A stretch of 63,608 bases of DNA from Verrucomicrobiia bacterium (GTDB taxonomy: Bacteria; Verrucomicrobiota; Verrucomicrobiia; JABWAM01): positions 1 through 63,608 of the forward strand of contig JAQUAF010000027.1 in assembly GCA_028687435.1 (NCBI GenBank). The letters are read 5' to 3'. The notes below the pieces were generated by a model. That model made no database searches and was not told where the DNA came from. It saw only the letters and a program-made list of their open reading frames with translations. Below are positions 20,692 through 33,203 of the stretch, in pieces; within the stretch, counting starts at the first letter, position 1; every line of letters begins with the position of its first letter. The position numbers were made by a program, and so were the translations under genes.

Positions 20692-21279
20692 TCACCGATG
20701 CGGCAAGAAATGATCCCAATCCGGGATTTGATGGGGATTGCGGAGAAAAAAAGTGACCGGCAGCTCGCGGGGGAGTTGGGGGGTTTTGAGCAGCTTCAAG
20801 CCGGCTTCCTCGGGCAACCGGTCGGCCTTGGAGGCGTTCACCTCCCGGTGCGCCAGAACGCAGTTTTCCCAGGAAGTCTTGCCACCTTTGGAGCGCGGCC
20901 GCACGTGATCGATGCTGGCTTCATGGCGATGAAGCCGTTTTCCGGTGTATTGGCACAGGCCGCCATCGCGGTCCCATATTGCCTGGTTTGAAAAACGTGG
21001 GCGCCGTTTGGGTACCTGGTTGTAACCCACGCAGACGATGACCGTGGGAATCCTGATTTTTCCGCGCGGGGTTTGTGCAAAGGAGTCGTCTTCCCGGACG
21101 GGCAGGGCAAGCCATTGATTCCAAGTCACAGGCAACATGACATCCATCCCCTGGATGTCCAGAGCTGTGGCCGCATCGGAAGCCATCATGCAAAAGGCTT
21201 GCGCCGGCGTTTTCACATGGATCGCCTGCCAGTTCCGGTTCAAAACCAAAACAGTCGGTTGATTGAGTCGATCATTCAT
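20692..21279 (-). CDS. HNH endonuclease
   Basis: A 195-residue protein of the common bacterial HNH family with an N-terminal VLVLNRNWQAIHV segment and the nuclease motif CQYTGKRLHRHEASIDHVRPRSKGGKTSWENCVLAHREVNASKADR in consecutive order (His-Asn-His pattern IDHVRP, ENCV, H-N). The metal-binding second Cys pair is incomplete. I chose ATG 21279 over the TTG at 21291. Confidence 0.85.
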   Translation of the reverse strand: MNDRLNQPTVLVLNRNWQAIHVKTPAQAFCMMASDAATALDIQGMDVMLPVTWNQWLALPVREDDSFAQTPRGKIRIPTVIVCVGYNQVPKRRPRFSNQAIWDRDGGLCQYTGKRLHRHEASIDHVRPRSKGGKTSWENCVLAHREVNASKADRLPEEAGLKLLKTPQLPRELPVTFFLRNPHQIPDWDHFLPHR

Positions 21280-21344
21280 AATATTTTCCAAATATCCCCG
21301 GTATTTGTTCTTTGTCGTTTATTTGTTCCCAGACAACCCTAAAA

Positions 21345-21436
21345 TGGCGGAGCGCCGAAAAATTGCGTCCCATCCCGATGAGTCGGGACCATCTCGTTAG
21401 CACCGAGTGCCGGCACGCTTGTCCGGTTGACGCTCC
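21345..21436 (-). tRNA. tRNA-Ser(GCT), non-canonical T-loop
   Basis: Acceptor GGAGCGT/GCGCTCC, anticodon loop GTGCTAA, long variable arm (GTCCCGA...CGGGAT) as expected for serine, encoded CCA. The T-loop is CGCAATT, the same as tRNA-Ser(GGA) in the main array. One weak T-stem with G-T pairs. Confidence 0.8.
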
Positions 21437-21441
21437 ATATA

Positions 21442-21521
21442 TGGTTCCCGCGGCAGGATTCGCACCTGCACCATCCAAGGTTTGAGCTTGGCGCCTCTGC
21501 TGTTGGGCTAGTGCGGCGGGA
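21442..21521 (-). tRNA. tRNA-Leu(CAA), non-canonical T-loop and short variable loop
   Basis: Anticodon arm CCAAG-CTCAAAC-CTTGG; T-arm GCAGG-TGCGAAT-CCTGC; encoded CCA. The D-loop has AGCA, not GG. The variable region is only about 5 nt (ATGGT), whereas bacterial leucine tRNAs normally have a long variable arm. Lies 6 nt from tRNA-Ser(GCT), same strand. Confidence 0.75.
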
Positions 21522-22630: not shown

Positions 22631-22670
22631 GGTTCGGATCCTACCATGAAATGTTCACGCCGTCAGGGCA

Positions 22671-22732
22671 GATTGTGGGGACATTCTTTGCCCTGATGGA
22701 TCTTTACTTTTGCGTGCAGAATATGGACATGA
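22671..22732 (+). repeat. duplicated leader of module 1
   Basis: GTGGGGACATTCTTTGCCCTGA, then about 20 variable nt, then GTGCAGAATATGGACATGA. The same arrangement occurs at 26321-26383 before the second module, marking an ancestral segmental duplication. Confidence 0.8.
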
Positions 22733-23154
22733 AACAAATCTTCCTTTCTTCGTTCACCGGGCTTGCTGCACTGTGCGCAAGCGTCCTTTTTCTCGGATGC
22801 GCCATGGCTCCCAGTGTTCAACGGCTTAAAGTCGAGCCGCGTTTTCAACAGGCTGCCACCGAATTGGCGACGGCTTACCTTGAAAGCCAGAAAAAGGGTG
22901 AAAGCATGCCGTCGTTTGGTCCCGGTGCCGCGCATTTCTTCAACCTGGCGGAATACAAGATTGTTTCCTGCGGATGGGAATGGCGCCAACCGGCTGTTTT
23001 TGTTCATGTCAAGGCAGGCAACAAGATCGGTGGCAACCCTGTTTGGGCCAACTATGCCATCCGAATGGGCCATAATGCACAATTGGAGGCAGGCGGAGAT
23101 CGTTATCTTGGGTTGCGAATTGCTTCGGTGGGGCAAGCCATGGTGAATTTTTGA
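22723..23154 (+). CDS. putative lipoprotein
   Basis: About 143 residues with a type II signal peptide: MDMKQIFLSSFTGLAALC followed by the lipobox LFLGC. The mature part has no recognised domain (AYLESQKKGESMPSFGPGAAHFFN, then WANYAIRMGHNAQ). It sits 6 bp before the helical-repeat protein gene. Confidence 0.6.
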   Translation: MDMKQIFLSSFTGLAALCASVLFLGCAMAPSVQRLKVEPRFQQAATELATAYLESQKKGESMPSFGPGAAHFFNLAEYKIVSCGWEWRQPAVFVHVKAGNKIGGNPVWANYAIRMGHNAQLEAGGDRYLGLRIASVGQAMVNF

Positions 23155-23160
23155 AACATT

Positions 23161-24009
23161 ATGAACCGATCCAATATGAACCCACCGGGACGCGCCCAAG
23201 CGCCGGACAAGCAATCGTCGCCACACTCCGTTGTGCGAGAACTTTCTGGTTATGCTGAAATGGGCATGTGCAAGGAGGCGTTGGCTTTGGCCCGACGGGT
23301 TCTGAAAAGGTCGCGTCTGGAACCTGAAGTCTTCAACGAGGCGATCCACACGTTTCTTGTCCACCAGACAAAGCTTAAATCCGTACTGCCGCTGGTTACG
23401 GATGCCTATTTTCGTCTGAAAAAGAAAGATCAAAGGAAGGTCCGCCACTCGATGCTGGATTTTTACTTCAGCCTGGGTGATCATGGAAAGGCGTTGTTGT
23501 TTACCACCTTTCGTCCAAAAAACGGGATGGATTATTTGCTCTCTTTCAGGGTCTTTTTGGCGCTGGACCTAAAAAAAGAGGCAAAGCGCATGGCGCACCT
23601 TGGCCGGAGAATGCTGAGCCAACATGGACGCCCGAAAGAAATCGCGATCTTGCCCGCCTTGGCGAAATATTGTGAGTTCATAGGAGAGCTGGACATTGCT
23701 TTGTCAATGTGGCGGTTAATCCCCACCCAGGAATCGACGATTTACGACAAGCAGGGATCCATGGTGCGGAATCGTGTGGCGGAAACGCTCAAGATTCTGA
23801 ATGAGTCGCTTGAAGAAATCGAAGACCTTGCCCAGAACTCTGATCGTGAATTGGATGTTTCGCATCCCGGGTTGGATAAAAAATTGATCGAGGATTCACG
23901 CAAGGAATTACTCACCTTTCGGAAAGTGTTGGAAAGAATTTTGCCACAAAAACAGTGGAAGGCCTTCGGCTTGGTTGATGAAGAGGAAATTCATGAACAG
24001 AAAATTTAA
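23161..24009 (+). CDS. helical-repeat (TPR/PPR-like) protein, module 1
   Basis: A 282-residue all-helical protein (YAEMGMCKEALALARRVLKRSRLEPEVFNEAIHTF in its first third) with a conserved end: HPGLDKKLIEDSRKELLTFRKVLERILPQKQW. The gene at 26373 encodes a paralogue with the same order of segments. The alternation of short helices suggests TPR-like superhelix; partner unknown. It is followed by a relic of an AAA ATPase C-terminus, as is the paralogue. Confidence 0.6.
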   Translation: MNRSNMNPPGRAQAPDKQSSPHSVVRELSGYAEMGMCKEALALARRVLKRSRLEPEVFNEAIHTFLVHQTKLKSVLPLVTDAYFRLKKKDQRKVRHSMLDFYFSLGDHGKALLFTTFRPKNGMDYLLSFRVFLALDLKKEAKRMAHLGRRMLSQHGRPKEIAILPALAKYCEFIGELDIALSMWRLIPTQESTIYDKQGSMVRNRVAETLKILNESLEEIEDLAQNSDRELDVSHPGLDKKLIEDSRKELLTFRKVLERILPQKQWKAFGLVDEEEIHEQKI

Positions 24010-24135
24010 ATTTTGCCCGAGCATGAAGGTGATGATCTTGAAAGATGCCGAAATGGGTTTGACGACACAGGAATCTGACAATCCGGACCTCCTGTCGGCG
24101 TTGTTGAACCTCACCGACGGACTGAGGGCATCCAT

Positions 24136-24330
24136 TTGCAGTTGCAGATTATTTGCATGTCGAATTGCGAATTTGGCCAGATGGACCTGGCGCTCATCCG
24201 ACTCGGGTGCCACCTGGCCACGCAGGAATTCGCACCGTTGCCGTTTGAACAGGCACAGCGGTTAGCGGCGAAGATTGGAAAGACGTTGCCCAAAAATCGG
24301 TCATGCACCATTGCAAAATTTATTTCATGC
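24136..24330 (+). pseudogene. relic of AAA ATPase C-terminus, copy 1
   Basis: Reads SNCEFGQMDLALIRLGCHLATQEFAPLPFEQAQRLAAKIGKTLP in register with the better-preserved copy at 27406 (NCEFGKMDPAILRPGRLLALREF...). This is the sensor/arginine-finger end of an AAA-type ATPase (LRPGR motif, here decayed to IRLGC). No upstream ATPase body is present. Confidence 0.65.
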
Positions 24331-24467
24331 CGGGAATGGGTGAAGAATGGCGAAACTGAGAAAAATGTCCTTGTTTTTCAACCCTCGCAGGAACAGGCTG
24401 ACCAAGTTTGGGTTGGTAAAGTTCAATCCTTAATCACGCCTATTCTCTCCATCAAATAAAAAATCCG

Positions 24468-25109
24468 ATGCCAAAGTTTTACGTTTATAAAATGGTGTGT
24501 GATAACGGTGGTGCACCGTGCGTTTATCCCCAAAACTCAGCGAATGCAGTACTTTCCTTGTCAATCTGTAAGCCAATGATTCGATCGAGCGCTTGCAAGG
24601 GGGATTGGCTATTCGGCTTCGGAGGCAAGAAACTCGGAGGGCGACTGATTTATATAGCAGAAGTTGATGAAGTGCTGAAAGGTGGCGAGTATTACCGCAA
24701 TCCGAAATATATGATACGTCCCGACTGCATCTACCAGAAGGAGGGGGTGAACTACAGTTGGAAAAAAGGATCTGATTTCCACAAGAATGGTTCCAATATC
24801 GATCATGATCTTGGTAAATTCCCTGAACGTAAAAGAGCAATCGCCCTTCTCATCAACAACTTTCGTTATTTTGGCGAGGAAAACACCCTTAACTGGCAAG
24901 AGAAGTACGACCACTTGAAAACGATGTTGGATGATTTGAAGCAAGGTCATAGAGTAAACCATTCCACAGAAGTGGAATCCGACCTTAATAAACTGAAGGA
25001 TGCAATTTGGCGGCAGTATCCTGACGAAAAGCAGCTTGGCCTCCCGACAAACCGCGAAAAGTGTGGTAAATCCTCAACCCGGAGTTCAAAATGCAACTGT
25101 GGTTCCTGA
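24468..25109 (+). CDS. Nmad2-type protein (nucleotide-modification-associated domain 2)
   Basis: A 213-residue protein. The start MPKFYVYKMVCDNGGAPCVYP, then LSLSICKPMIRSSACKGDWLFGFGGKKLGGRLIYIAEVDEVL and GGEYYRNPKYMIRPDCIY match my recollection of Nmad2 (computationally linked to nucleic-acid base modification systems). Basic function of the family is unknown. The frame overlaps the next gene by 19 bp; both probably form one operon. Confidence 0.6.
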   Translation: MPKFYVYKMVCDNGGAPCVYPQNSANAVLSLSICKPMIRSSACKGDWLFGFGGKKLGGRLIYIAEVDEVLKGGEYYRNPKYMIRPDCIYQKEGVNYSWKKGSDFHKNGSNIDHDLGKFPERKRAIALLINNFRYFGEENTLNWQEKYDHLKTMLDDLKQGHRVNHSTEVESDLNKLKDAIWRQYPDEKQLGLPTNREKCGKSSTRSSKCNCGS

Positions 25110-26281
25110 GAGTGGCTGATGAGAATATCAGTCCTGAAATCATTAAAGGCAGCAACTTGGCAGCGGTTCTTTTTAAGCAGATACCGTTTTCCGAGTGTCG
25201 CCTTGGAATGGATCATAAAAAAATTGATGAATTGGTCGAAAAGTATTACCAAGGTGAATCAAGTGGAACCAAGGGGCAATTCAAGGGATCACTCCACCGT
25301 TTCCTGACCGAGGCGGGTGAGGGTGATCTTGTAGCTGTCTGTGTCAACGGGGATCAGAACTTGCTTTGGGGCGAACTCCTTCGGGGACAACTAACCCTAT
25401 TACCTGGTTTTGAAAAAGAAAATATCAAGGGGCGACCAGTTCGTTGGCTGTCACTACATGAACAGGCGACGATTGAGAAGATGTCGCCGCCTGATGCCGT
25501 CCGAAAATATCGTGGCACCATCTGCAAATGGCTCGATGATGTAGAATGGCCTGATGAGGAAGAAGAAAAACGGCAGCATTATTACTCGACGCCACCGGCT
25601 GAGAAACAGCGGCAGGTGAAATTTATCCGGGTTGGCATAGATACGGGTTGCGGCGGACGCTTGTCCAGGATGTTTCCTGGAAATTATTACCATTTCATTC
25701 CGATCCCAAAACACAACGATCCTGAATTTCGGCGTTTTACGTATGGTGATGTGAAAGGTCCAACCAAATTTCAAAGCCTTTTGGCCCTACGGAAAGGCGA
25801 TCTTTTAGTTTTATATGCAGGATTTGATCCGGAAAGAGACTTTAATCAGTGCCGATGTGTGGGCATTTTCTCGTACTTCGTAATCAAAGAGGTCTTTTTG
25901 TTTAAGAAAAAGGGTGGTTGTGCCCTGCAAATTGCCGAGACATCACGAACCAGCGATCCGGTCGGTGTTTTTAATAAACTTGCATCCCGCGAGACCTTTG
26001 ACGAAATGAGACGTGTTTATGGCCCATACAATCCTCACGTTGAAGAAGACCGTGACGAAATGCAGATTCTCATTTGCGGGGATACGAGTTTAAGTCGCTT
26101 GTTGAGCAAGGTTGAAGTCATCGCTGAAGCTGACAAAACGACAGGCAAGTATATCTTGAGCGAGGACAATGCCCATAAATGGGGGTTAAAAACAGGGGCC
26201 GATCTGACGCGCTGTTCTGTCCGAACGGTTGATTCAGAACATGTTGACGAGGCAGTCAAGTATCTTGAAAAATTACCTTGA
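25091..26281 (+). CDS. Nmad3-like protein with N-terminal restriction-type domain
   Basis: A 396-residue protein. The first about 150 residues (QFKGSLHRFLTEAGEGDLVAVCVNGDQNLLWGELL) resemble N-terminal reader-like domains of restriction-associated proteins. From about residue 175 comes VKFIRVGIDTGCGGRLSRMFPGNYYHFIPIPK, the Nmad3 entry motif, and LLALRKGDLLVLYAGF. Members of this group were predicted to act with base-modification or restriction systems. Assignment is from motif memory and should be searched. Confidence 0.55.
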   Translation: MQLWFLRVADENISPEIIKGSNLAAVLFKQIPFSECRLGMDHKKIDELVEKYYQGESSGTKGQFKGSLHRFLTEAGEGDLVAVCVNGDQNLLWGELLRGQLTLLPGFEKENIKGRPVRWLSLHEQATIEKMSPPDAVRKYRGTICKWLDDVEWPDEEEEKRQHYYSTPPAEKQRQVKFIRVGIDTGCGGRLSRMFPGNYYHFIPIPKHNDPEFRRFTYGDVKGPTKFQSLLALRKGDLLVLYAGFDPERDFNQCRCVGIFSYFVIKEVFLFKKKGGCALQIAETSRTSDPVGVFNKLASRETFDEMRRVYGPYNPHVEEDRDEMQILICGDTSLSRLLSKVEVIAEADKTTGKYILSEDNAHKWGLKTGADLTRCSVRTVDSEHVDEAVKYLEKLP

Positions 26282-26320
26282 AGTTTTTTTCCACTTCAAA
26301 CAGTTGTTCCTTAACGTTCT

Positions 26321-26383
26321 GATGTTGGGGACATTCTTTGCCCTGATATTCTCACGGATATAAGTGCAGAATATGGGCATGAG
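26321..26383 (+). repeat. duplicated leader of module 2
   Basis: Second copy of the leader at 22671-22732 (GTTGGGGACATTCTTTGCCC, then GTGCAGAATATGGGCATGA). Confidence 0.8.
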
Positions 26384-27359
26384 ATCATCAATTACATCAT
26401 CTGCCGGCCCAGCGAATCTTTCCAGACCCCCGGTTAAAAAGACCCTTTTGGATGAAATGGACGGTTATGGAGAACTGGGCATGCATCGGGATGGCCTTCG
26501 ATTGGCCCGGCGAATTCTAAATCAAAAGGTTTTGGTCGCAAAAGAATTCGAGGGGGCCATGATGGTCATCTTGTCGACCCAGAAGCGCTTGAAACAGAGT
26601 GCTCCGCGGATTGAGCGGGCTTATCGACGGTTATCAAAACCGGATCAAAGAAAGATGCGGCCCGTCATATTGAGGCTTTATATATGCATCGACGATTACG
26701 CAAAAGCGCTCCCCTTTGCCGCCCGTCGACCAATCAACGCCATGGATCTCGCATTTTCGCTGGATACTTTCTCCGCCGCGGGAAAAAAAGACGTTGTGGA
26801 TCGTTTGGTGAGAATGGGGGTGAACTATTTGTGGCAACTGGAGTATTTATGCGCCGAGAATCTGATTCGATCAACATTGACTGCCGATTTTGTGCAGGAA
26901 GGGCAGTGGATGCGGGCTTTGGCCCTGTGGAAAGGCGTTCCGAGCGATGTTGCGTTGAATTCATGCGACCAGAATCTGATTCGATCATCATTGGCTGACC
27001 ATTTTGTGCAGGAAGGGAAGTGGACGCGGGCTTTGGCCCTGTGGAAAGGCGCTCCGACCGATGTTGCGTTTTGCTGCCAAAAGTTCAGTGATCGTGTGCA
27101 GATTCATGCCGCGCAAGGTTTGAAAATCATCCGGGAAGGTCTTGCCGAACTGGCACGGTTGGAATCCCGGGGTGATCCGGATTTTGATCTCGCCCAACCT
27201 GGATTGTCCAAGGGCTTGATTGGGGATTCCCGTCGCGAACTTCTTTCGTTCCGCAAGGCGCTGAAAAGGATTTTGCCCCGGAAATACTGGGAAAAGTACA
27301 GATTGGACAAGGAAGCCCAACCTTCCGAACCGGAAACCTTGGATTCGTCCCTCGATTAA
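26373..27359 (+). CDS. helical-repeat protein, module 2
   Basis: About 328 residues, paralogue of the 23161 protein (DGYGELGMHRDGLRLARRIL; SKGLIGDSRRELLSFRKALKRILPRKYW at the end). It carries a tandem internal duplication of about 35 residues, each unit reading NLIRS-(T/S)L-(x)ADxFVQEG-(Q/K)W-(M/T)RALALWKG. The duplication extends the superhelix relative to module 1. Start codon uncertain among ATG/GTG codons at 26364-26379. Confidence 0.6.
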   Translation: MGMRSSITSSAGPANLSRPPVKKTLLDEMDGYGELGMHRDGLRLARRILNQKVLVAKEFEGAMMVILSTQKRLKQSAPRIERAYRRLSKPDQRKMRPVILRLYICIDDYAKALPFAARRPINAMDLAFSLDTFSAAGKKDVVDRLVRMGVNYLWQLEYLCAENLIRSTLTADFVQEGQWMRALALWKGVPSDVALNSCDQNLIRSSLADHFVQEGKWTRALALWKGAPTDVAFCCQKFSDRVQIHAAQGLKIIREGLAELARLESRGDPDFDLAQPGLSKGLIGDSRRELLSFRKALKRILPRKYWEKYRLDKEAQPSEPETLDSSLD

Positions 27360-27405
27360 GTCAGAGACCAAAACCGAAGCCTTTGATTCGGACATTCATC
27401 TGCGG

Positions 27406-27603
27406 ATGCAGATCAAACGAACGATGAACTGCGAATTCGGAAAGATGGATCCCGCTATTCTCCGGCCCGGCCGGCTCTTGGCGCTGCGAGAATTCAAACC
27501 GCTTCCACGCGGACAAGCGGATCGCCTGGCAAAAGACCTCGGCAAAACGTTGCCGCCAAAACAGGAGTACACCCTCGAGGAAGTTTCAGAACTCCTGACA
27601 TAG
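27406..27603 (+). pseudogene. relic of AAA ATPase C-terminus, copy 2
   Basis: A 65-residue frame: NCEFGKMDPAILRPGRLLALREF then PLPRGQADRLAKDLGKTLPP and YTLEEVSELL. Corresponds to the end of an AAA ATPase (LRPGR sensor 2 region) without its P-loop body. Could be translated as a small protein, but three copies with different decay argue for a duplicated relic. Confidence 0.65.
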
Positions 27604-27758
27604 GGCACCGTTTCTCCTATGAAAACTGTTTTTTGAACCTCGAACCCAAACCTGTCCGCTTTTTTGGGCTCAAAACAACATCTCCCCTCGAGAAAACCTC
27701 TTTCGGTTGCAAAAAAGCGGCCATTCTCGTACCCCCCTATGTCAGGAGTTCTGAATTT

Positions 27759-28553
27759 TCATGGCCAAGTCAATCCAGCAAGCAGGTCAAAATTCGGATT
27801 CTTTTTTCGAATGGAGTTTCTGAGAATAATAGCTCTCTTCCAACCATCATGAGTTGTTAGATCGCAAATTGCACGACATGCTCTGGTTGAGAAATTCCAC
27901 CTGATTCCATGATGCCAATTCAGTTTTTCTCCAGAAGCTGTTCGAACAGTCTTCAGTAATAAACTCGATGATTTGTAAATTCCTAAATCAACGGCCTTTT
28001 CGAAAAGCATAGAATGTCTTTTTTGTCCGATAAAAACACGATTGTCTTTGCCGATCAGACCTTTAAAAACATGGGCATTTGCTTTGGCCCGCAATCGATT
28101 TCTGGCAGTAGCATCACTTGGGTGTTGGCCTTCATCGAGAATTTCATCAATTCTTATTGCTCCAATCAAACACCATTGACGCGGATCATCTCCGTCAGTT
28201 TGTTCCCGTTTCTTATCGGTCCATTCAATCCACCCTTTTCCATTATTTTTCCACAACAAGGCCCAAAACAGAAAAATGTCATTCCTCTCTGCATGCCATA
28301 AGGCAGCACTGCGCCTGCACCATCCATCGCCATATGTCAGATTTTTCCAGTCTGGATCACAATGGATATCTCTCCCATTCATTTTATGTCTTTGAACAAA
28401 TGGCCGAATTTCGTTTGAGAATTTCATATACCCGTTTACACCTTCTTTAGTGAATGGGGCATAATAAAAACCTCCGTCTGAGAAAACAGGGCTTCGTACA
28501 ATTGATTTATCTGCCATATTTGCGCCAACATTTATCAAATAGATTTTCGACAT
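27759..28553 (-). CDS. Nmad3-family protein (nucleotide-modification-associated)
   Basis: A 264-residue protein beginning MSKIYLINVGANMADKSIVR, then SPVFSDGGFYYAPFT, the family start pattern VNVGAN...RSPIF.DG.F.F.P. Further stretches: CDPDWKNLTYGDGW and RNDIFLFWALLW. Opposite orientation to the module-2 genes and lying between two ATPase relics. Role in nucleic-acid modification is predicted for the family, not shown. Confidence 0.65.
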   Translation of the reverse strand: MSKIYLINVGANMADKSIVRSPVFSDGGFYYAPFTKEGVNGYMKFSNEIRPFVQRHKMNGRDIHCDPDWKNLTYGDGWCRRSAALWHAERNDIFLFWALLWKNNGKGWIEWTDKKREQTDGDDPRQWCLIGAIRIDEILDEGQHPSDATARNRLRAKANAHVFKGLIGKDNRVFIGQKRHSMLFEKAVDLGIYKSSSLLLKTVRTASGEKLNWHHGIRWNFSTRACRAICDLTTHDGWKRAIILRNSIRKKNPNFDLLAGLTWP

Positions 28554-29370: not shown

Positions 29371-29448
29371 TGGGGCCGGCGGCGGGTCTCGCACCCGCTT
29401 TCTCGTGCTCCCAAGGCACGCGGATCGGCTTCTTCTCCATCTGCCCGT
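29371..29448 (-). tRNA. tRNA-Pro(TGG), first copy, non-canonical T-loop
   Basis: Anticodon arm CGTGC-CTTGGGA-GCACG, T-arm GCGGG-TGCGAGA-CCCGC, encoded CCA. The acceptor is poor (ACGGGCA against CGCCGGC, 4 of 7 pairs), so this last gene of the array may be decaying. Confidence 0.65.
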
Positions 29449-29453
29449 AATAA

Positions 29454-29695
29454 TGGATCCACCCGACGGACTTGCACCCAATAATCCGGGCAGTCCCTCG
29501 GTTCGGCTCCTTGCCTTGTGCGCGGGGAAGGGGAGGGGTTGCGGCCCCCTGAAACAAGCGGGCGGTTCGTTATCGGAACCTCATGAAACTGATCGCTCCC
29601 AGGTCTGTCGATCCTCCTTGGTGGGAAGAAACGCTGTGGTACTCGCGAATCAGGTTCCACGCATGGATCATCCATGCTGCCGCAACCCCGAAAAA
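29454..29695 (-). pseudogene. degenerate tRNA remnants
   Basis: Begins with a CCA and a T-loop TGCAAGT, like the other units, but only 2-3 pairs of the T-stem and no acceptable anticodon arm can be formed. A second CCA-like end at about 29620 precedes a GCATG-GATGATC-CATGC hairpin without T33. I read this stretch as one or two broken tRNA genes. Confidence 0.4.
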
Positions 29696-29783
29696 TGGCG
29701 GAGGTCGGGAGAATCGCACTCCCAATCCCTGGGAAGGGACAGCCGGGTTCAAGCCGGGATCCTCGTCTATTCGGACGACCTCC
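29696..29783 (-). tRNA. tRNA-Ser(TGA), non-canonical T-loop
   Basis: Acceptor GGAGGTC/GACCTCC fully paired, anticodon loop CTTGAAC, long variable arm (TCCC...GGGA), T-arm GGGAG-TGCGATT-CTCCC, encoded CCA. Its 5' end abuts the TTTA target duplication of the MITE. Confidence 0.85.
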
Positions 29784-29787
29784 TTTA

Positions 29788-30075
29788 GGAGCCGCGCAAA
29801 AATTAATTCACATTCTGGCAAAGGCACCGTGCAGGCAGATGCCAGACGCGAGGAAGGAGAATATCCCTCGTGGACCCCGCAGCAGCGGGGCTGATCCCGC
29901 ACAGCGGGACCGCAGATGCCTGCACGCTGCCGCGCCCCTGTGGGCTGGGGGGATTTGGCCGGCTGGTTGCGTTGCTCGCGACTCACAGCCCCATGAAGGG
30001 GATGCTCGTCACTCGCGCCTTGCCATCCGGCCAAATCCCCTCCAGCAGAATGTGAAGTAATTTTTGCGCGGCTCC
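29788..30075. mobile_element. 288-bp MITE-like element between two tRNA genes
   Basis: Terminal inverted repeats of 30 bp with 29 matches: left end GGAGCCGCGCAAAAATTA (29788 on), right end complementary (30046-30075). The element is flanked by TTTA on both sides (29784-29787 and 30076-30079), a 4-bp target duplication. No transposase is inside. The interior has several GC-rich hairpins (for example GATTTGGCCGG...CCGGCCAAATC). Confidence 0.85.
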
Positions 30076-30080
30076 TTTAA

Positions 30081-30155
30081 TGGCTCCAGCGCATGGACTC
30101 GCACCATGACCGCGCCGCTTAACAGGCGGGCGTGCTGCTTTGACACCACGCTGGA
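30081..30155 (-). tRNA. tRNA-Asn(GTT), non-canonical T-loop
   Basis: Acceptor TCCAGCG/CGCTGGA paired, anticodon loop CTGTTAA, D-loop with AGCA, T-arm CATGG-TGCGAGT-CCATG, encoded CCA. Confidence 0.85.
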
Positions 30156-30164
30156 TCGAATAAA

Positions 30165-30240
30165 TGATCGGGCTGGTGAGATTTGCACTCACGATCTTTC
30201 GCACCCCATGCGAACGCGCTGACTACTACGCAACAGCCCG
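30165..30240 (-). tRNA. tRNA-Pro(GGG), non-canonical T-loop
   Basis: Acceptor CGGGCTG/CAGCCCG paired, anticodon arm TTCGC-ATGGGGT-GCGAA, T-arm GTGAG-TGCAAAT-CTCAC. The 3' end reads TCA instead of CCA, one of the few units without an encoded CCA. Confidence 0.8.
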
Positions 30241-30244
30241 AAAA

Positions 30245-30319
30245 TGGTACTCCGCCAGGGTACTGCCCCCTGTTCCCCGGGTTAAAAGCCCGGTGCTTCA
30301 CTTGTAAAGCTTGCGGAGC
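30245..30319 (-). tRNA. tRNA-Lys(TTT), G54-G58 T-loop
   Basis: Acceptor GCTCCGC/GCGGAGT, anticodon arm CCGGG-CTTTTAA-CCCGG, D-stem GCTT/AAGC, T-arm CAGGG-GGCAGTA-CCCTG, encoded CCA. Confidence 0.85.
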
Positions 30320-30328
30320 GCAAAGAAA

Positions 30329-30402
30329 TGGTCCGGGCTGGAGGTTACGCTCCCCCGTCAGCTGGGTGTAGGCCAGCGGTCCTGCTATTGAACGAAGCCC
30401 GG
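30329..30402 (-). tRNA. tRNA-Val(TAC), A54-T58 T-loop
   Basis: Acceptor CCGGGCT/AGCCCGG paired, anticodon arm GCTGG-CCTACAC-CCAGC, D-loop AATAGCA, T-loop AGCGTAA, encoded CCA. Confidence 0.85.
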
Positions 30403-30408
30403 GACAAA

Positions 30409-30492
30409 TGGTCGGCGCGGAGGGACTTGCACCCCCAAGGATTACACGTTCTAAGCGTGCAGGCTCTGCTTTTCGCTCTCATCCACGCGCCG
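30409..30492 (-). tRNA. tRNA-Leu(TAG), non-canonical T-loop, short variable loop
   Basis: Acceptor CGGCGCG/CGCGCCG paired, anticodon arm GCACG-CTTAGAA-CGTGT, T-loop TGCAAGT, encoded CCA. The D domain is long (contains AAAAGCAG) and the variable loop is only about 7 nt, unlike ordinary bacterial leucine tRNAs. Confidence 0.75.
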
Positions 30493-30498
30493 GAAAAA

Positions 30499-30572
30499 TG
30501 GTGCCCAAGGCAGGTGCCGCCCCTGCGTCTGCCGCTTATCAAGCGGCCGCTCTGCTGTTGAGCTACGTGGGC
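30499..30572 (-). tRNA. tRNA-Ile(GAT), G54-G58 T-loop
   Basis: Acceptor GCCCACG/CTTGGGC (one mismatch), D-arm GCTC-AACAGCA-GAGC, anticodon arm GCCGC-TTGATAA-GCGGC, T-arm GCAGG-GGCGGCA-CCTGC, encoded CCA. Confidence 0.85.
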
Positions 30573-30580
30573 ATTGATGA

Positions 30581-30654
30581 TGGCTGTCCCGGCTGGATTT
30601 GCACCAACGCGAACGAGGTCAGAGCTCGTCATGCTGCGATTACATCACGGGACA
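30581..30654 (-). tRNA. tRNA-Gln(CTG), non-canonical T-loop
   Basis: Acceptor TGTCCCG/CGGGACA paired, anticodon arm ACGAG-CTCTGAC-CTCGT, T-loop TGCAAAT, encoded CCA. Confidence 0.85.
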
Positions 30655-30655
30655 T

Positions 30656-30729
30656 TGGCACCCGATCCGAGATTCGCACTCGGTACTCCAGCTTGAAAGA
30701 CTGGCGACTTACTCATAGTCGAATCGGGC
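30656..30729 (-). tRNA. tRNA-Glu(TTC), non-canonical T-loop
   Basis: Acceptor GCCCGAT/ATCGGGT, anticodon arm CCAGT-CTTTCAA-GCTGG, D-loop with AGTA, T-arm CCGAG-TGCGAAT-CTCGG, encoded CCA. Only 1 nt separates it from tRNA-Gln. Confidence 0.85.
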
Positions 30730-30735
30730 AAAAGA

Positions 30736-30831
30736 TGGCGGAAGCCAGGGGAATTGCGCCCCATTCCGGCTTGGCGGCCGGAACCCGTCCGCTTCCAACG
30801 GAGGCCGGCGCGCTGGTCCGGTTTGGCTTCC
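30736..30831 (-). tRNA. tRNA-Ser(GGA), C54 T-loop
   Basis: Acceptor GGAAGCC/GGCTTCC paired, anticodon loop TTGGAAG, long variable arm (TTCCGGC...GCCGGAA), T-loop CGCAATT as in tRNA-Ser(GCT), encoded CCA. Confidence 0.8.
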
Positions 30832-30842
30832 AAAAGGCAAAA

Positions 30843-30917
30843 TGGTCGCTCCGGATGGAGTTGCACCATCATTGCGCGGCGTATGAAACCGGCACATTCC
30901 TGTTATGCTACGGAGCG
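30843..30917 (-). tRNA. tRNA-Met or Ile2(CAT), non-canonical T-loop
   Basis: Acceptor CGCTCCG/CGGAGCG fully paired, so not initiator-like. Anticodon loop TTCATAC, D-loop AACAGGA, T-arm GATGG-TGCAACT-CCATC, encoded CCA. Elongator Met or lysidine-modified Ile2 cannot be separated here. Confidence 0.75.
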
Positions 30918-30921
30918 TCTA

Positions 30922-30994
30922 TGGTTGCAGGGGGCGGAGTCGCACCAGCCAAAGGAAGGTTATGGGCCTTCCGGGGGACTCTCCCCGCCCTGCG
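30922..30994 (-). tRNA. tRNA-Met(CAT), initiator-like C1-A72, non-canonical T-loop
   Basis: Acceptor CGCAGGG/CCCTGCA with a C1-A72 mismatch, the hallmark of bacterial initiator tRNA. Anticodon arm GAAGG-CCCATAA-CCTTC (two of the three initiator G-C pairs), T-loop TGCGACT, encoded CCA. Confidence 0.75.
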
Positions 30995-30999
30995 TTAAA

Positions 31000-31074
31000 T
31001 GGTGGAGCCAGACGGTTCCGCCCCGCCGTTTCCTCCATGCCATGGAGGCGTCCTCCTAATTGGACGATGGCCCC
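31000..31074 (-). tRNA. tRNA-Ala(GGC), G54-G58 T-loop
   Basis: Acceptor GGGGCCA/TGGCTCC, D-arm GTCC-AATTAGGA-GGAC, anticodon arm CCTCC-ATGGCAT-GGAGG, T-loop GGCGGAA, encoded CCA. The G3-T70 pair is in the position of the usual alanine identity pair. Confidence 0.85.
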
Positions 31075-31080
31075 GCAAAA

Positions 31081-31156
31081 TGGTGGACCGGAAGGGGGTT
31101 GCACCCTTCACACCCGGTATGCAAGACCAGGTCGCCGCTTGGGAACATGCCGGCCC
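31081..31156 (-). tRNA. tRNA-Ala(TGC), non-canonical T-loop
   Basis: Acceptor GGGCCGG/CCGGTCC with a G3-T70 wobble (alanine identity element), anticodon loop CTTGCAT, T-arm AAGGG-TGCAACC-CCCTT, encoded CCA. Confidence 0.85.
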
Positions 31157-31162
31157 AAATAA

Positions 31163-31239
31163 TGGTGCGCCATGAGAGACTTGCACTCTCCCCGCCTGTT
31201 TGGAAGACAGGCATGCTTGCTTTAAACACCTATGGCGCA
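31163..31239 (-). tRNA. tRNA-Gly(TCC), non-canonical T-loop
   Basis: Acceptor TGCGCCA/TGGCGCA paired, anticodon loop CTTCCAA, T-arm GAGAG-TGCAAGT-CTCTC, D-loop with AAAGCAA, encoded CCA. The G-T-G-C stretch matches, from memory, the replacement seen in staphylococcal cell-wall tRNA-Gly. Confidence 0.85.
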
Positions 31240-31247
31240 TTAAAAAA

Positions 31248-31321
31248 TGGAGCCACCAGCGGGTAACGCTCCCGCGTCTGGGCTTTACCAAAGCCCCGTT
31301 CTGCTTTTGAACCATGGCGGC
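31248..31321 (-). tRNA. tRNA-Thr(GGT), A54-T58 T-loop
   Basis: Acceptor GCCGCCA/TGGTGGC, D-arm GTTC-AAAAGCA-GAAC, anticodon arm GGGCT-TTGGTAA-AGCCC, T-arm GCGGG-AGCGTTA-CCCGC, encoded CCA. Confidence 0.85.
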
Positions 31322-31328
31322 TTGAATA

Positions 31329-31403
31329 TGGTCCGTCGCCCGCGTGCTGCCCGCGGTATCTCGTGATCCCGAATCACGCGGATTACTGTCTTCCTCGCGA
31401 CGG
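31329..31403 (-). tRNA. tRNA-Pro(CGG), G54-G58 T-loop
   Basis: Acceptor CCGTCGC/GCGACGG paired, anticodon arm CGTGA-TTCGGGA-TCACG, T-arm CCGCG-GGCAGCA-CGCGG, encoded CCA. Confidence 0.85.
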
Positions 31404-31408
31404 ATAAA

Positions 31409-31484
31409 TGGAGCGCCGTACAGGAATTGCACCTGTCTGTCCCGGGTTGCAGCCGGGTGCCTTAAGCTGCTCGGCCAACGGCGC
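31409..31484 (-). tRNA. tRNA-Cys(GCA), non-canonical T-loop
   Basis: Acceptor GCGCCGT/ACGGCGC paired, anticodon arm CCCGG-CTGCAAC-CCGGG, T-arm ACAGG-TGCAATT-CCTGT, discriminator T (cysteine identity U73), encoded CCA. Confidence 0.9.
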
Positions 31485-31488
31485 TAAA

Positions 31489-31563
31489 TGGTCCAGCACC
31501 CCGGTACTGCCCCGGATATCTCGCCGTCCCAAGCGGCGCGGATTACTTTCTTCCTCGTGCTGG
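31489..31563 (-). tRNA. tRNA-Pro(TGG), second copy, G54-G58 T-loop
   Basis: Acceptor CCAGCAC/GTGCTGG paired, anticodon arm CGCCG-CTTGGGA-CGGCG, T-loop GGCAGTA, encoded CCA. Same family as tRNA-Pro(CGG) at 31329. Confidence 0.85.
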
Positions 31564-31570
31564 TGAAAAA

Positions 31571-31685
31571 TGGCGCGCCCGGCGGGCCTTCGCCGCGACG
31601 AAGTGGCCGCGGCCACGCAGGCGGGTGCCGCCCCCGCTCTATCCCGTTAGACAGACGGGCAGCTCTGCTGTTTGCTCTCGGGCGC
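31571..31685 (-). tRNA. tRNA-Asp(GTC) interrupted by a 39-nt insertion
   Basis: Without positions 31582-31620 the gene is a perfect tRNA: acceptor GCGCCCG/CGGGCGC, anticodon arm CCCGT-CTGTCTA-ACGGG, T-arm GCGGG-GGCGGCA-CCCGC, encoded CCA. The insertion lies between the T-stem and the 3' acceptor strand and is bounded by a direct GCGGG repeat. Confidence 0.85.
31582..31620. repeat. 39-nt REP-like insertion inside tRNA-Asp
   Basis: Contains CCTTCGCC...CGACG.AGTGGC..CGGCCACGCAG and is flanked by GCGGG (31582-31586 and 31621-31625). A close copy, also bounded by GCGGG, interrupts a Gfo/Idh gene fragment at about 56528-56571. Confidence 0.8.
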
Positions 31686-31690
31686 GCAAA

Positions 31691-31765
31691 TGGGGTGCTG
31701 GGCCGGTTACGCTCCGGCGTCGTCCCGTTCACAGCGGGCTGATCTGCTATTGATCTACAAGCACC
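31691..31765 (-). tRNA. tRNA-His(GTG), A54-T58 T-loop
   Basis: Anticodon loop CTGTGAA, T-arm GCCGG-AGCGTAA-CCGGC, D-arm GATC-AATAGCA-GATC, encoded CCA. An extra 5' G opposite discriminator C73 is encoded, the specific histidine identity element. Confidence 0.9.
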
Positions 31766-31801
31766 GTCAAAAAGCTTGCCATCCAAAGGATGGGAATCTA
31801 T

Positions 31802-31876
31802 TGGAGCCACCGGCCGGAATTGCACCGGCATCCTCCGTTTACGAAACGGACACTCTGCTGGCTGAGCTACGGCGGC
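31802..31876 (-). tRNA. tRNA-Thr(CGT), non-canonical T-loop
   Basis: Acceptor GCCGCCG/CGGTGGC, D-arm GCTC-AGCCAGCA-GAGT, anticodon arm TCCGT-TTCGTAA-ACGGA, T-arm GCCGG-TGCAATT-CCGGC, encoded CCA. Followed by a 36-nt gap, one of the few longer spacers. Confidence 0.85.
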
Positions 31877-31881
31877 TGAAT

Positions 31882-31956
31882 TGGTATCCCCACCTGGATT
31901 CGCACCAGGATCCCCGGCTTCGGAGACCGGAACTCTTCTGTTTAAGCTATGGGGAC
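31882..31956 (-). tRNA. tRNA-Arg(CCG), non-canonical T-loop
   Basis: Acceptor GTCCCCA/TGGGGAT, anticodon arm CCGGT-CTCCGAA-GCCGG, T-arm CCTGG-TGCGAAT-CCAGG, encoded CCA. Confidence 0.85.
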
Positions 31957-31957
31957 A

Positions 31958-32033
31958 TGGTGGCCAACCGCGGAGTCGCACCGCGCCTTTCCGCTCTTCA
32001 GGCGGACGCAATCACTACGATTGCTTGTTGGCC
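31958..32033 (-). tRNA. tRNA-Phe(GAA), non-canonical T-loop
   Basis: Acceptor GGCCAAC/GTTGGCC paired, D-stem GCAA/TTGC, anticodon arm TCCGC-CTGAAGA-GCGGA, T-arm CGCGG-TGCGACT-CCGCG, encoded CCA. Spacer to tRNA-Arg(CCG) is 1 nt. Confidence 0.9.
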
Positions 32034-32037
32034 AAAA

Positions 32038-32114
32038 TGGTCTCCCCGCGACGATTCGCACGCCGATTCTCCCGGTTCGTAGCCGGGTGTGTTATCTATT
32101 TACACCACGGGAAG
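32038..32114 (-). tRNA. tRNA-Arg(ACG), non-canonical T-loop
   Basis: Acceptor CTTCCCG/CGGGGAG, D-stem GTGT/ACAC, anticodon arm CCCGG-CTACGAA-CCGGG, T-arm CGGCG-TGCGAAT-CGTCG, encoded CCA. A34 would need deamination to inosine. Confidence 0.85.
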
Positions 32115-32115
32115 G

Positions 32116-32212
32116 TGGTCCGCCCGGAAGGAGTTGCACCCTCATGACCCGCACATCTAGCGGGTGTTTTGCGAGATATAAGCTCGCGGTTTTGCTGTTA
32201 AACTACGGGCGG
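32116..32212 (-). tRNA. tRNA with TAT anticodon on a long-variable-arm body
   Basis: Acceptor CCGCCCG/CGGGCGG paired, D-arm GTTT-AACAGCA-AAAC, anticodon arm GCGAG-CTTATAT-CTCGC, T-loop TGCAACT, encoded CCA. The variable arm is long (ACCCGC...GCGGGT), normal for Ser/Leu/Tyr but not for an isoleucine (AUA) reader. Isotype uncertain. Confidence 0.75.
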
Positions 32213-32215
32213 AAA

Positions 32216-32251
32216 TGGCTTGTCTTGGGAAGACTTGCCTAAAAGATGAAT
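32216..32251 (-). pseudogene. tRNA 3'-end remnant
   Basis: A CCA end with GGCAAGTCTTCCC, resembling a T-arm and acceptor strand, but no anticodon or D-arm before the next gene. Confidence 0.4.
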
Positions 32252-32327
32252 TGGTGGAAGCGACGGGAGTTGCACCCGCCTCACGGTCCTTGCGAAAGAC
32301 CATCGCCACTACGGCACATGCGCCCCC
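32252..32327 (-). tRNA. tRNA-Ala(CGC), non-canonical T-loop
   Basis: Acceptor GGGGGCG/CGCTTCC with a G3-T70 wobble, anticodon arm GGTCT-TTCGCAA-GGACC, T-arm GCGGG-TGCAACT-CCCGT, encoded CCA. Confidence 0.8.
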
Positions 32328-32336
32328 AAACAAAAG

Positions 32337-32412
32337 TGGCGCGCCAGGCAGGGGTTTCACCTGCGACCTTCTCGTTAGGAACAAGTGGCTCTATAAACTG
32401 AGCTACTGGCGC
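32337..32412 (-). tRNA. tRNA-Arg(CCT), T-loop with G55 and A56
   Basis: Acceptor GCGCCAG/CTGGCGC paired, D-arm GCTC-AGTTTATA-GAGC, anticodon loop TTCCTAA, T-arm GCAGG-TGAAACC-CCTGC, encoded CCA. C56 is replaced by A and the D-loop lacks G19. Confidence 0.8.
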
Positions 32413-32416
32413 GAAA

Positions 32417-32491
32417 TGGCGCTTCCGGCGGGTTTTTCTCCTGCATCTTTCGGTTTAGAAGACCGATGCTCTTTAATTGAGCTACGGAAGC
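32417..32491 (-). tRNA. tRNA-Arg(TCT), T-loop AGAAAAA
   Basis: Acceptor GCTTCCG/CGGAAGC paired, D-arm GCTC-AATTAAA-GAGC, anticodon arm TCGGT-CTTCTAA-ACCGA, encoded CCA. Both C56 and G19 are replaced by A. One mismatch in the T-stem. Confidence 0.8.
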
Positions 32492-32495
32492 GAAA

Positions 32496-32615
32496 GGATT
32501 GAGCGGGTGGAGCCTTCTCTCCACTGATCGCCAGCTCGCGAGGCCCGGCTGGCATGGAACCAGCCATGACGATCACACTTGTAACGACAAGTTGGTGCGT
32601 ATACGCAACCGCTCA
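32496..32615 (-). other. 120-nt divergent tRNA-like unit
   Basis: Has a perfect acceptor (TGAGCGG/CCGCTCA) and the array spacing, ending ATCC not NCCA. The interior holds extra hairpins: ACTTG...CAAGT, GGCTGG-TTCCATG-CCAGCC (a possible CCA anticodon arm) and an outer GATCG...CGATC stem. The T-arm GTGGA...TCCAC has an 8-nt loop. It is not a standard cloverleaf; it could be a tRNA with an expanded variable region or with an insertion. Confidence 0.45.
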
Positions 32616-32617
32616 AA

Positions 32618-32710
32618 TGGTGGGCGGGGCTGGAGTTGCACCAGCGATGTTCAGCTCATGGCCCCCGTTTTACAGACGGGTCCAACACATCTGGCAGTTG
32701 GCTCCCACCC
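32618..32710 (-). tRNA. tRNA-Tyr(GTA), non-canonical T-loop
   Basis: Acceptor GGGTGGG/CCCGCCC, anticodon arm CCCGT-CTGTAAA-ACGGG, long variable arm as in bacterial Tyr, T-arm GCTGG-TGCAACT-CCAGC, encoded CCA. Confidence 0.9.
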
Positions 32711-32714
32711 AAAA

Positions 32715-32787
32715 TGGTTCCAGGGGATGGAATCGAACCATCGAAAACAAGCGTATGAGACTTGCGGAGGGCCATCCTCTCCCTGGG
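32715..32787 (-). tRNA. tRNA-Met(CAT), initiator-like, with canonical T-loop
   Basis: The only unit with a normal T-loop: GATGG-TTCGATT-CCATC. Acceptor CCCAGGG/CCCTGGA has a C1-A72 mismatch. Anticodon arm CAAGT-CTCATAC-GCTTG. The short D-loop contains ATGG. Encoded CCA. Confidence 0.75.
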
Positions 32788-32871
32788 GAAAACACTTCCG
32801 GCTTTCACGGCCTCTTCAATTTCATCCTGTGGATGGCGCCTCGTGTCGTAGGCGCAAGGATTCTTGCTAAC
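32788..32871 (-). other. 84-nt gap in the tRNA array
   Basis: Longest spacer in the array. It contains a GCGCCT...AGGCGC hairpin but no cloverleaf; it may be a decayed tRNA. Confidence 0.35.
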
Positions 32872-32946
32872 TGGCACCCAGCGTGGGACTCGCACCCACC
32901 CACAAGGTTTTGGAGACCTCGTCGCCGCTATGGAACATGGCCGGGT
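32872..32946 (-). tRNA. tRNA-Trp(CCA), first gene of the array
   Basis: Acceptor ACCCGGC/GCTGGGT, anticodon arm GAGGT-CTCCAAA-ACCTT, T-arm GTGGG-TGCGAGT-CCCAC, encoded CCA. It is the promoter-proximal unit if the array is one transcript. Confidence 0.85.
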
Positions 32947-33203
32947 TAATAAACGACAAAGAACAAACACCGTTGCGAGTGTCTCCGTGTGGGGCACGGG
33001 TTTCTCGCAGCCGCAGGTCTTTAAGCGCGGACGTTTCAGTGTTTAAAGGCACACCTCCCGGAAAGCCATTGGCGGGATGGTCGCAGACATAAAACACCGG
33101 CAGGTGTCGCAAGCACATAACTTGACACCTCCTGTGAACAGGACTAAGTTGCCGTTGGTTGCGGATTGGCGGACTTAGTCCGTTCGATCTGTGTTCCATC
33201 CCG
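32947..33203. ncRNA. structured region upstream of the tRNA array (candidate leader or antisense RNA)
   Basis: Rich in nested inverted repeats: AGGTGTC...GACACCT, GGACTAAGT...ACTTAGTCC and GCGAG...CTCGC. On the minus strand AGGAGGTG lies 8 nt before an ATG (33118), but that frame has no stop until after tRNA-Trp, so a leader peptide is doubtful. On the plus strand a terminator follows. A 17-nt motif (TTGTTCTTTGTCGTTTA) near the tRNA end recurs at about 21305. I do not recognise a known RNA family. Confidence 0.4.

Follow-up and report, generated by a model that had tools for sequence, protein, structure and literature searches.

The window analysed here, a 63,608-nucleotide contig of a Verrucomicrobiia bacterium (contig C148 of the draft genome G000; 5.97 Mb, 154 contigs, 94% complete), carries on its minus strand at 29371..32946 a dense array of transfer RNA (tRNA) genes whose elbow is altered almost throughout the set. 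The array consists of 33 readable genes, one divergent unit and remnants. Bases 18 and 55 have been changed jointly, A18 with G55 replacing the usual G18 and U55, and the elbow has been rebuilt and has not decayed. The interpretation that we lean towards, if only by a little, is that the array would act as a mobile backup tRNA set, charged by the host synthetases, that sustains translation when the ordinary tRNAs are cut or inactivated.

The units were read with a parser anchored on the encoded CCA, which kept only units with good stems and so favours paired counts. It recovered 28 units within 29696-32946. Five extra units whose 5-bp T stems are intact (Ile-TAT, Pro-GGG, Leu-TAG, an insertion-bearing Asp-GTC and a Pro-like unit at 29371) bring the readable minus-strand genes to 33 within 3.6 kb. 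G is found at T-loop position 55 (G55) in 32 of the 33, the sole exception being a Met-CAT gene. An earlier sequence-only reading of the window had reported the same 33 genes with one divergent unit and remnants, the same 32 with G55, and G55 in two further genes near 21.3 kb, all of which parsing reproduced; its proposal of a parallel tRNA pool is well supported. The anticodons cover all 20 amino acids. ARAGORN recognises 14 of the 33 genes, and 13 reach the Rfam gathering score. A pattern of three consecutive G55 units has five matches in the window and none in any of 100 shuffles, so the pattern is not due to chance.

The contact between G18 and pseudouridine 55 is among the most conserved in tRNA. 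In canonical tRNAs G18 pairs with pseudouridine 55 and G19 with C56 (PMC4810234). In the array A18 accompanies G55, G19 is kept and C56 is mostly kept. The sequence-only reading had recognised G55 but overlooked both this partner and the covariation of positions 54 and 58. D loops were classed as GG, or as AG without GG, as a proxy for positions 18-19, and the counts comprise distinct units with a short variable arm, C56 and G or T at 55, with three staphylococcal loci omitted. In bacterial array loci G55 units are AG in 538 cases, GG in 63 and other in 34, and T55 units are GG in 44 and AG in none. In viral loci, whose arrays often hold A18-G55 and canonical genes side by side, the G55 units are AG 229, GG 23 and other 7, and the T55 units GG 99, AG 2 and other 2. 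The window's own G55 units are AG 17, GG 2 (both AGG) and other 1. AGG is present in 49 of 62 GG-bearing G55 units (a closely similar set), and the register A18-G19-G20 is thus allowed.

The association extends to other lineages: in Chloroflexales (G55 units AG 35, GG 12, other 3; T55 units GG 12), Saccharibacteria (G55 units AG 4, other 1; T55 units GG 10, other 1) and Myxococcota (G55 units AG 2, GG 2; T55 units GG 4). Positions 54 and 58 also covary, the bacterial G55 units having TA in 384 cases, GG in 100, AT in 61, CA in 40, CC in 25, AA in 17 and eight rarer combinations. Because A18 goes with G55 and GG with T55, the elbow has been rebuilt instead of having decayed. From the covariation of positions 18 and 55 we infer that A18 touches or pairs with G55, which would keep the L shape.

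Near-pure G55 arrays recur patchily in Verrucomicrobiota, as a search of related genomes suggested in the sequence-only reading brought out. The pattern of three consecutive G55 units was sought in one genome per species from 84,980 species, and at least 112 stretches match. Among the matches listed (112), 76 hold clusters of at least four units with at least 70% G55, seven have a lower G55 share (staphylococcal 3, Chloroflexales 2, Saccharibacteria 1, Myxococcota 1), 28 are without any four-unit cluster and one falls in no class; the record titles among them are mainly of Verrucomicrobiota, isolates included. One match in Phycisphaerales (L047) is a simple repeat and was rejected. The carriers include the isolates Chthoniobacter flavus and Geminisphaera colitermitum. 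In drawn samples, the pattern is present in G000 and 5 of 56 relatives, and at the level of the phylum in G000 and 8 of 386 other Verrucomicrobiota genomes, all of one class. Viral stretches account for 45 matches, most of the virus labels resting on IMG/VR. Of 15 viral records tested for a terminase family, three have one; these are the records of L148, L149 and L154, with 16, 14 and 19 clustered G55 units, respectively. A blastn search of the array against phages and plasmids gave no match.

Outside the window the Rfam tRNA model marks 47 places in G000, one of which, on C131, was rejected as a host tRNA because ARAGORN sees no tRNA there. The 46 ordinary tRNAs have 44 anticodons, and 45 of the 46 read have T54-T55 and a D-loop GG, Ser(GGA) among them. 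The exception is tRNA-Phe(GAA) at G000:C43:157-231 (L296), with the D loop AGTAGTA and the T loop TGCGATT, that is, A18-G55. It is the only ordinary Phe tRNA found in G000 and stands by itself over the contig's first 6 kb. Copies of this gene, either identical or with one or two anticodon-stem changes, are present in G002 and G003 (same family) and in G005 (same order), at L294:1470-1544, L295:1501-1575 and L297:1470-1544; G003 and G005 have it with no match to the array pattern. Matches to the A18-G55 Phe pattern in G007 and G035 were judged not tRNA-like.

A canonical Phe pattern matches 33 of 57 genomes, other families of the class included, and none of the six genomes G000-G005. A looser canonical pattern gives 18 matches in these six, and ARAGORN finds a tRNA in none of the 18 loci. 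The Phe patterns do miss genes, since neither kind was matched in G001 and G004 and 24 of the 57 genomes have no canonical match. On a plain reading, these bacteria would decode Phe codons with an A18-G55 tRNA. Because the ordinary Phe tRNA of the host and three relatives has it, the A18-G55 elbow probably works in translation and is no mark of tRNAs held off the ribosome, a possibility that the sequence-only reading had raised by analogy with staphylococci. That reading had also named G55 in ordinary host tRNAs as evidence against its proposal, and this one gene in 46 is the only such case.

The signals for charging are largely retained. They were examined in 784 G55 units, from 822 distinct units of 78 sources. 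G3:U70 is present in 24 of 24 units with Ala anticodons versus 5 of 760 other units. The discriminator base equals that of the host isoacceptor in 622 of 707 units (200 shuffles: mean 305, highest 332), the comparison being limited to amino acids with a host reference and excluding CAT units and Phe. U73 is found in 42 of 49 Thr units and in all three host Thr tRNAs. The long variable arm is kept in all Ser (34/34) and Tyr (19/19) units and lost in 48 of 65 Leu units. Many CAT units are without a Watson-Crick 1-72 pair and are initiator-like. A recurring CAT class in which the D arm is very short and the 1-72 pairing mostly poor (L023, L027, L041, L053, L084, L096, L108, L110) resembles two Met units of the window. 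The pairs that weaken EF-Tu binding are not enriched, A49-U65 being found in 3% of the 784 array units versus 19% of 42 host tRNAs, and A51-U63 in 20% versus 17%.

The stems point to selection as well. Two Prosthecobacter islands share 13 matched units at 91% identity with 196 stem pairs unchanged; among the changed pairs, 16 are altered on both sides and still paired, 5 are altered on one side and still paired, and 4 are broken. Three further island pairs gave, in the same order, 13/6/4, 12/8/3 and 27/11/6, and two very close strains gave 1/1/0, the good-stem filter of the parser hiding badly broken units in each comparison. Related arrays thus differ mainly by changes that keep pairing, and the random decay that the sequence-only reading had set out as a refutation is not what they exhibit.

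The individual genes of the array, all on the minus strand, are given here from its upstream end. The tRNA-Trp(CCA) gene (32872..32946, T loop TGCGAGT) is followed by tRNA-Met(CAT) (32715..32787), the only T55 unit (TTCGATT), which has a C1-A72 mismatch and is initiator-like, by tRNA-Tyr(GTA) (32618..32710, long variable arm, TGCAACT), and by the divergent unit (about 32500..32617). Two genes have G55 without C56, tRNA-Arg(TCT) (32417..32491, T loop AGAAAAA) and tRNA-Arg(CCT) (32337..32412, T loop TGAAACC). Next are tRNA-Ala(CGC) (32252..32327, G3:U70 kept), tRNA-Ile(TAT) (32116..32212, extra sequence, TGCAACT), tRNA-Arg(ACG) (32038..32114), tRNA-Phe(GAA) (31958..32033), tRNA-Arg(CCG) (31882..31956), tRNA-Thr(CGT) (31802..31876, U73 like the host), tRNA-His(GTG) (31691..31764, C73, loop AGCGTAA) and the tRNA-Asp(GTC)-like unit (31571..31690), with an insertion 3' of the T arm and the loop GGCGGCA.

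The central part contains tRNA-Pro(TGG) (31489..31563, GGCAGTA), tRNA-Cys(GCA) (31409..31484, U73), tRNA-Pro(CGG) (31329..31403, GGCAGCA), tRNA-Thr(GGT) (31248..31321, AGCGTTA), tRNA-Gly(TCC) (31163..31238, with A73 where the host has U73), tRNA-Ala(TGC) (31081..31156) and tRNA-Ala(GGC) (31000..31074), both with G3:U70 kept, tRNA-Met(CAT) (30922..30994, short D arm, C33) and a second CAT unit, Met or Ile2 (30843..30917). A tRNA-Ser with a long variable arm, G73 and the loop CGCAATT (30736..30831) was assigned the anticodon AAG by script, and inspection by eye suggests GGA. It is followed by tRNA-Glu(TTC) (30656..30729), tRNA-Gln(CTG) (30581..30654), tRNA-Ile(GAT) (30499..30572, GGCGGCA), tRNA-Leu(TAG) (30409..30495, TGCAAGT), tRNA-Val(TAC) (30329..30402, C33, AGCGTAA), tRNA-Lys(TTT) (30245..30319, GGCAGTA), tRNA-Pro(GGG) (30166..30241, TCA in place of CCA) and tRNA-Asn(GTT) (30081..30155). 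The array ends with tRNA-Ser(TGA) (29696..29783, long variable arm), a remnant at about 29453-29520 and the Pro-like unit (29371..29452, T loop TGCGAGA). Within it, at 29787-30076, lies a 31-base inverted repeat (97%) whose 228-base inner part holds a further inverted repeat, resembling an insert of the miniature inverted-repeat transposable element (MITE) or repetitive extragenic palindromic (REP) type. The two G55 genes apart from the main array are tRNA-Leu(CAA) (21442..21521, minus strand, short variable arm) and tRNA-Ser(GCT) (21345..21436, minus strand, long variable arm).

The sequence-only reading had described the array itself correctly and overlooked its conserved neighbours and flanking inverted repeats. 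Array and cargo are bounded by a 25-base inverted repeat with arms identical at 24 of 25 positions, one directly upstream of the array (32948..32972, minus strand) and one between the last tRNA and the HNH gene start (21299..21323, plus strand). Its 20-base core has no further copy in G000 at up to two mismatches. A related core, GGTGTTYGTTCTTTGT, is found in 15 of 20 loci, each with a forward copy and an inverted one (G066 has two of the latter); its 31 matches in 574 kb all lie in these loci, and one shuffle gave 4. The forward copy precedes the first parsed G55 unit in 14 of the 15 loci (the exception is G073), and the inverted copy stands after the array. In seven loci the latter is clearly before a gene, HNH in G078, G073, G023, G002 and the window and RtcB in C. 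flavus and G068. In six it overlaps the 5' end of the longest open reading frame (ORF), for which a later start is assumed, the ORFs being HNH in G079 and G046, RtcB in G061 and G067, and Band-7 in G066 and G070. In the Gemini locus it precedes a damaged HNH frame, which has an in-frame stop, and in G077 it was assigned to no gene.

Beyond the core, arms from a single locus resemble each other more than arms from different loci. A long-range RNA stem alone is disfavoured, the 390 arm positions comprising 319 matches, 13 G-U and 58 other mismatches. Nor is a reading as the ends of a single transposon upheld alone, because the second copy starts HNH, RtcB or Band-7 genes in most loci. The repeats may equally well be mobile ends or a common site for control or processing.

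Neighbouring genes were surveyed by clustering the ORFs around 20 Verrucomicrobiota arrays, the window's included, with Pfam family names. HNH adjoins 16 of the 20 loci, RtcB 10, TROVE (Ro60) 5, an RlaP nucleotidyltransferase 4 and Band-7 3. In the window the array-type HNH endonuclease is encoded at 20692..21291 on the minus strand; its motif D-H, N, N is invariant in 22 aligned homologues. The HNH protein is matched in 48 of 57 genomes, mostly by a paralogue near 35% identity, such as the chromosomal gene at G000:C111:3824-4333, a kind common in Verrucomicrobiota genomes. Matches of at least 49% over most of the length (the window's own aside) are confined to G002, G023, G042 and G046, each of which carries an array; among the 57 genomes the array-type HNH is found only with arrays. 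No HNH of array type was seen in G001, whose array lies close to the end of a contig. A tree places the HNHs of G55 arrays in one group with six viral ones (support 95/78) and separates them from 15 non-array paralogues (98/95); the row L267, labelled non-array, is the window's own gene. The HNHs of T55 arrays fall outside the G55 group, as do two viral ones (L113, L126) from mixed arrays. A structure model of the protein (predicted local distance difference test, pLDDT, 84.5; predicted template modelling score, pTM, 0.51) has two PDB matches with E of at most 0.001, both to Cas9 with its HNH domain, and lower-ranked matches that include a nicking HNH and McrA.

HNH relatives also led to accessory arrays elsewhere, in Nostoc (20 tRNAs), Mycobacterium intracellulare (28), Acidiphilium (36), Variovorax (23, with an RNA ligase) and phage Tunturi_5 (19, with a tRNA ligase). 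These come from 8 plasmid and phage loci examined out of 126 matching records, three of the loci being without an array. ARAGORN reads 126 genes in the five arrays, with T55 in 122, C55 in 3 and G55 in 1 (Nostoc Glu).

The cargo of the window includes an Nmad2 gene (24468-25109) and two Nmad3 genes (25091-26281 and 27759-28553). PADLOC and PHROGs found no defence system in it, returning only generic HNH matches, weak PDC-S02 matches and two weak PHROGs matches. Two direct 112-base copies, 90% alike, lie at 26845-27070 within the ORF 26364-27359, and a 26-base inverted repeat (92%) with arms 129 bases apart lies beside an Nmad3 gene at 27580-27760. A YhcG/DUF1016 nuclease gene (PDDEXK) is situated at 7613-8890, about 12 kb off the island.

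On the backup interpretation, array genes would be expressed upon tRNA damage or translation stress, host synthetases would charge the tRNAs and the ribosome would use them. The new elbow would make them invisible to an enzyme that recognises the canonical form, candidates being a tRNA nuclease (from a phage, the host or a rival) and a modification enzyme. Where RtcB, RlaP and Ro60 occur, they may mend cut tRNAs meanwhile, and the HNH protein may help the cassette to spread or may act on tRNA. A protective effect of the elbow change is conjecture. To our knowledge, no tRNA nuclease reads 18-55. The HNH-containing PtuAB cuts tRNA-Tyr (PMC13096335), and AriB has been modelled touching the D loop (PMC12409363).

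Several observations weigh against this interpretation. AriB does not need pseudouridine 55, killing a truB mutant devoid of it as readily as the wild type (PMC12409363), a term search of the Cas12a3 paper found no mention of the elbow, and no enzyme that spares the A18-G55 elbow was found. T55 in 122 of 126 genes of the HNH-linked arrays implies that such arrays need no new elbow, and within viral arrays the two elbow kinds are often mixed. The A18-G55 Phe tRNA of the host means that the elbow is not reserved for arrays, weakening the idea of a purely protective mark. C56 is missing in 76 of 1071 G55 units, including Arg-TCT and Arg-CCT of the window, and these 76 stand outside the 18/55 counts. 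Gly units have A73 in 44 of 51 cases and the host Gly has U73. The window ORFs tested include HNH, with no RtcB, TROVE, RlaP or Band-7 found among them; RtcB in G000 matches only in one 301-aa frame outside the window, and the cargo between the tRNA groups (21683-28553) consists of Nmad2, Nmad3 and several ORFs without a family.

In another explanation, the HNH nuclease and inverted repeats spread a mobile cassette whose tRNAs only tune codon supply, the elbow being a neutral habit of the lineage with no protective value. The patchy distribution, the agreement of the repeat arms, the phage relatives and the housekeeping Phe tRNA with the same elbow are as expected from it, as is the report that, of the genes in mycobacterial arrays, HNH is the most widespread and has a link to tRNA diversity (PMC5966550). 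However, the ordinary host tRNAs already offer 44 anticodons, and the near-total change in the arrays and its recurrence in Chloroflexales and Saccharibacteria units argue for function. We regard this explanation as unlikely, while taking it seriously. A bolder form of the backup idea is doubtful: a second tRNA chassis common to bacteria and phages, with A18-G55 and its own 54-58 pairs, would be unreadable to enzymes of the canonical elbow and travel on a cassette bounded by inverted repeats, so that when a linked or incoming HNH nuclease attacked canonical tRNAs the carrier alone would translate on. Housekeeping Phe would have been taken over in one lineage.

The sequence-only reading had offered decoys and non-ribosomal use, both of which fit less well than a charged backup set. 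A sponge of uncharged tRNA mimics that absorbs anticodon nucleases or other tRNA-directed toxins would be in keeping with the retained anticodon stem-loops, with the presence of arrays beside RNA-repair genes and in phage records, and with the known phage tRNAs that escape cleavage (PMC10264068, PMC13096335). But a decoy has no need of G3:U70, a host-like discriminator or the Ser and Tyr variable arm, all of which are kept, and the encoded CCA and two-sided stem changes point to charging; these identity elements argue against pure decoys, which we consider improbable. Donors of aminoacyl groups for cell wall, lipid or peptide modification, held off EF-Tu like the staphylococcal tRNA-Gly, would share G55 with it, and the 18-55 pair reportedly matters for rapid translocation (Pan 2006). 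Such a role is very improbable for a set that spans all 20 amino acids with many isoacceptors, includes initiator-like CAT units with poor 1-72 pairing, lacks the EF-Tu-weak T-stem signature and has its elbow in common with the ordinary Phe tRNA of the host. The families shown for 113 neighbour ORFs (25 of 90) include no aminoacyl-tRNA transferase, although two of the ORFs match GNAT acetyltransferases. A charged backup set is thus favoured over decoys and non-ribosomal donors because of the identity elements, the full set, the initiator-like units, the ordinary T stems and, above all, Phe. Decaying pseudogenes, suggested by the divergent unit, the remnant, the TCA-for-CCA gene and the insertion-bearing Asp unit, are contradicted by the elbow covariation, kept identity elements and paired substitutions and can be dismissed.

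The arrays represent a natural, recurrent and set-wide replacement of G18-pseudouridine55 with clear covariation, and they offer hundreds of natural test cases for the purpose of the elbow. They connect accessory tRNA arrays with RNA repair and with phage conflict; a standard tRNA finder largely misses them. If the backup reading is true, it shows how cells can keep a second translation set in reserve that survives when the first is destroyed.

Accessory tRNA arrays have already been described; the elbow is the new part. The sequence-only reading knew of no description of such a set, and for the elbow this stands, as no prior description of G55 elbows, of Verrucomicrobia tRNA arrays or of a tRNA cluster with RtcB and HNH was found in a partial coverage of the literature. 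The staphylococcal cell-wall tRNA-Gly, to which that reading compared the array, does share G55. The likeness does not extend to positions 18-19, where ten staphylococcal copies in the scan have CT or TT at the G18-G19 site and the array has A18-G19. The non-proteinogenic staphylococcal tRNA-Gly has lost 18-19 and has the weak EF-Tu pairs A49-U65 and A51-U63 (PMC4052509); that set is Gly only, whereas the array covers all 20 amino acids and has ordinary T stems.

Some phages have spare tRNAs that evade tRNA-cutting defences, stand in for damaged host tRNAs and are altered at the site of nuclease action (PMC10264068, PMC13096335, PMC11555353). Their changes are in the anticodon or variable loops, and here the elbow of a whole set is changed. 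The RNA-repair genes RtcB, Ro60, RlaP and Band-7 belong to the same protein families that adjoin the related arrays. In their available parts, two RNA-repair papers make no link to such a tRNA set, and one notes jumbo phages with both tRNAs and RNA ligases.

The mycobacterial tRNA array units (Morgado and Vicente 2018; Mycobacterium avium plasmids 2026) are also dense, accessory, on mobile DNA and associated with HNH, and they have been put forward as antidefence (PMC12803027). The array of the window shares with such units the density and the HNH neighbour, which is common among them without being universal; unlike in such units, ARAGORN takes only 14 of its 33 genes for ordinary tRNAs. The M. 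intracellulare plasmid array has G55 in none of its 28 genes, unlike the Verrucomicrobia arrays. The trn operon of Anabaena sp. PCC 7120 (26 plasmid tRNA genes, TrcR regulon) is likewise an extra multi-tRNA set beside the housekeeping tRNAs. The operon stays silent until translation inhibitors induce it, and it promotes survival; rtcB, a slipin gene and HNH genes are also under its repressor TrcR (PMC10272220). Of these three families (slipin being a Band-7 protein), HNH is linked in 16 of 20 array loci, RtcB in 10 and Band-7 in 3, and the window has HNH only. The plasmid array of Nostoc PCC 7524, read instead of that of Anabaena, stands beside a related HNH gene and has T55 with GG in 19 of 20 genes. 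One Glu(CTC) gene in it (L259:6685-6761) has the T-loop TGC among canonical neighbours. Unlike the Nostoc array, the Verrucomicrobia set is changed almost throughout at the elbow.

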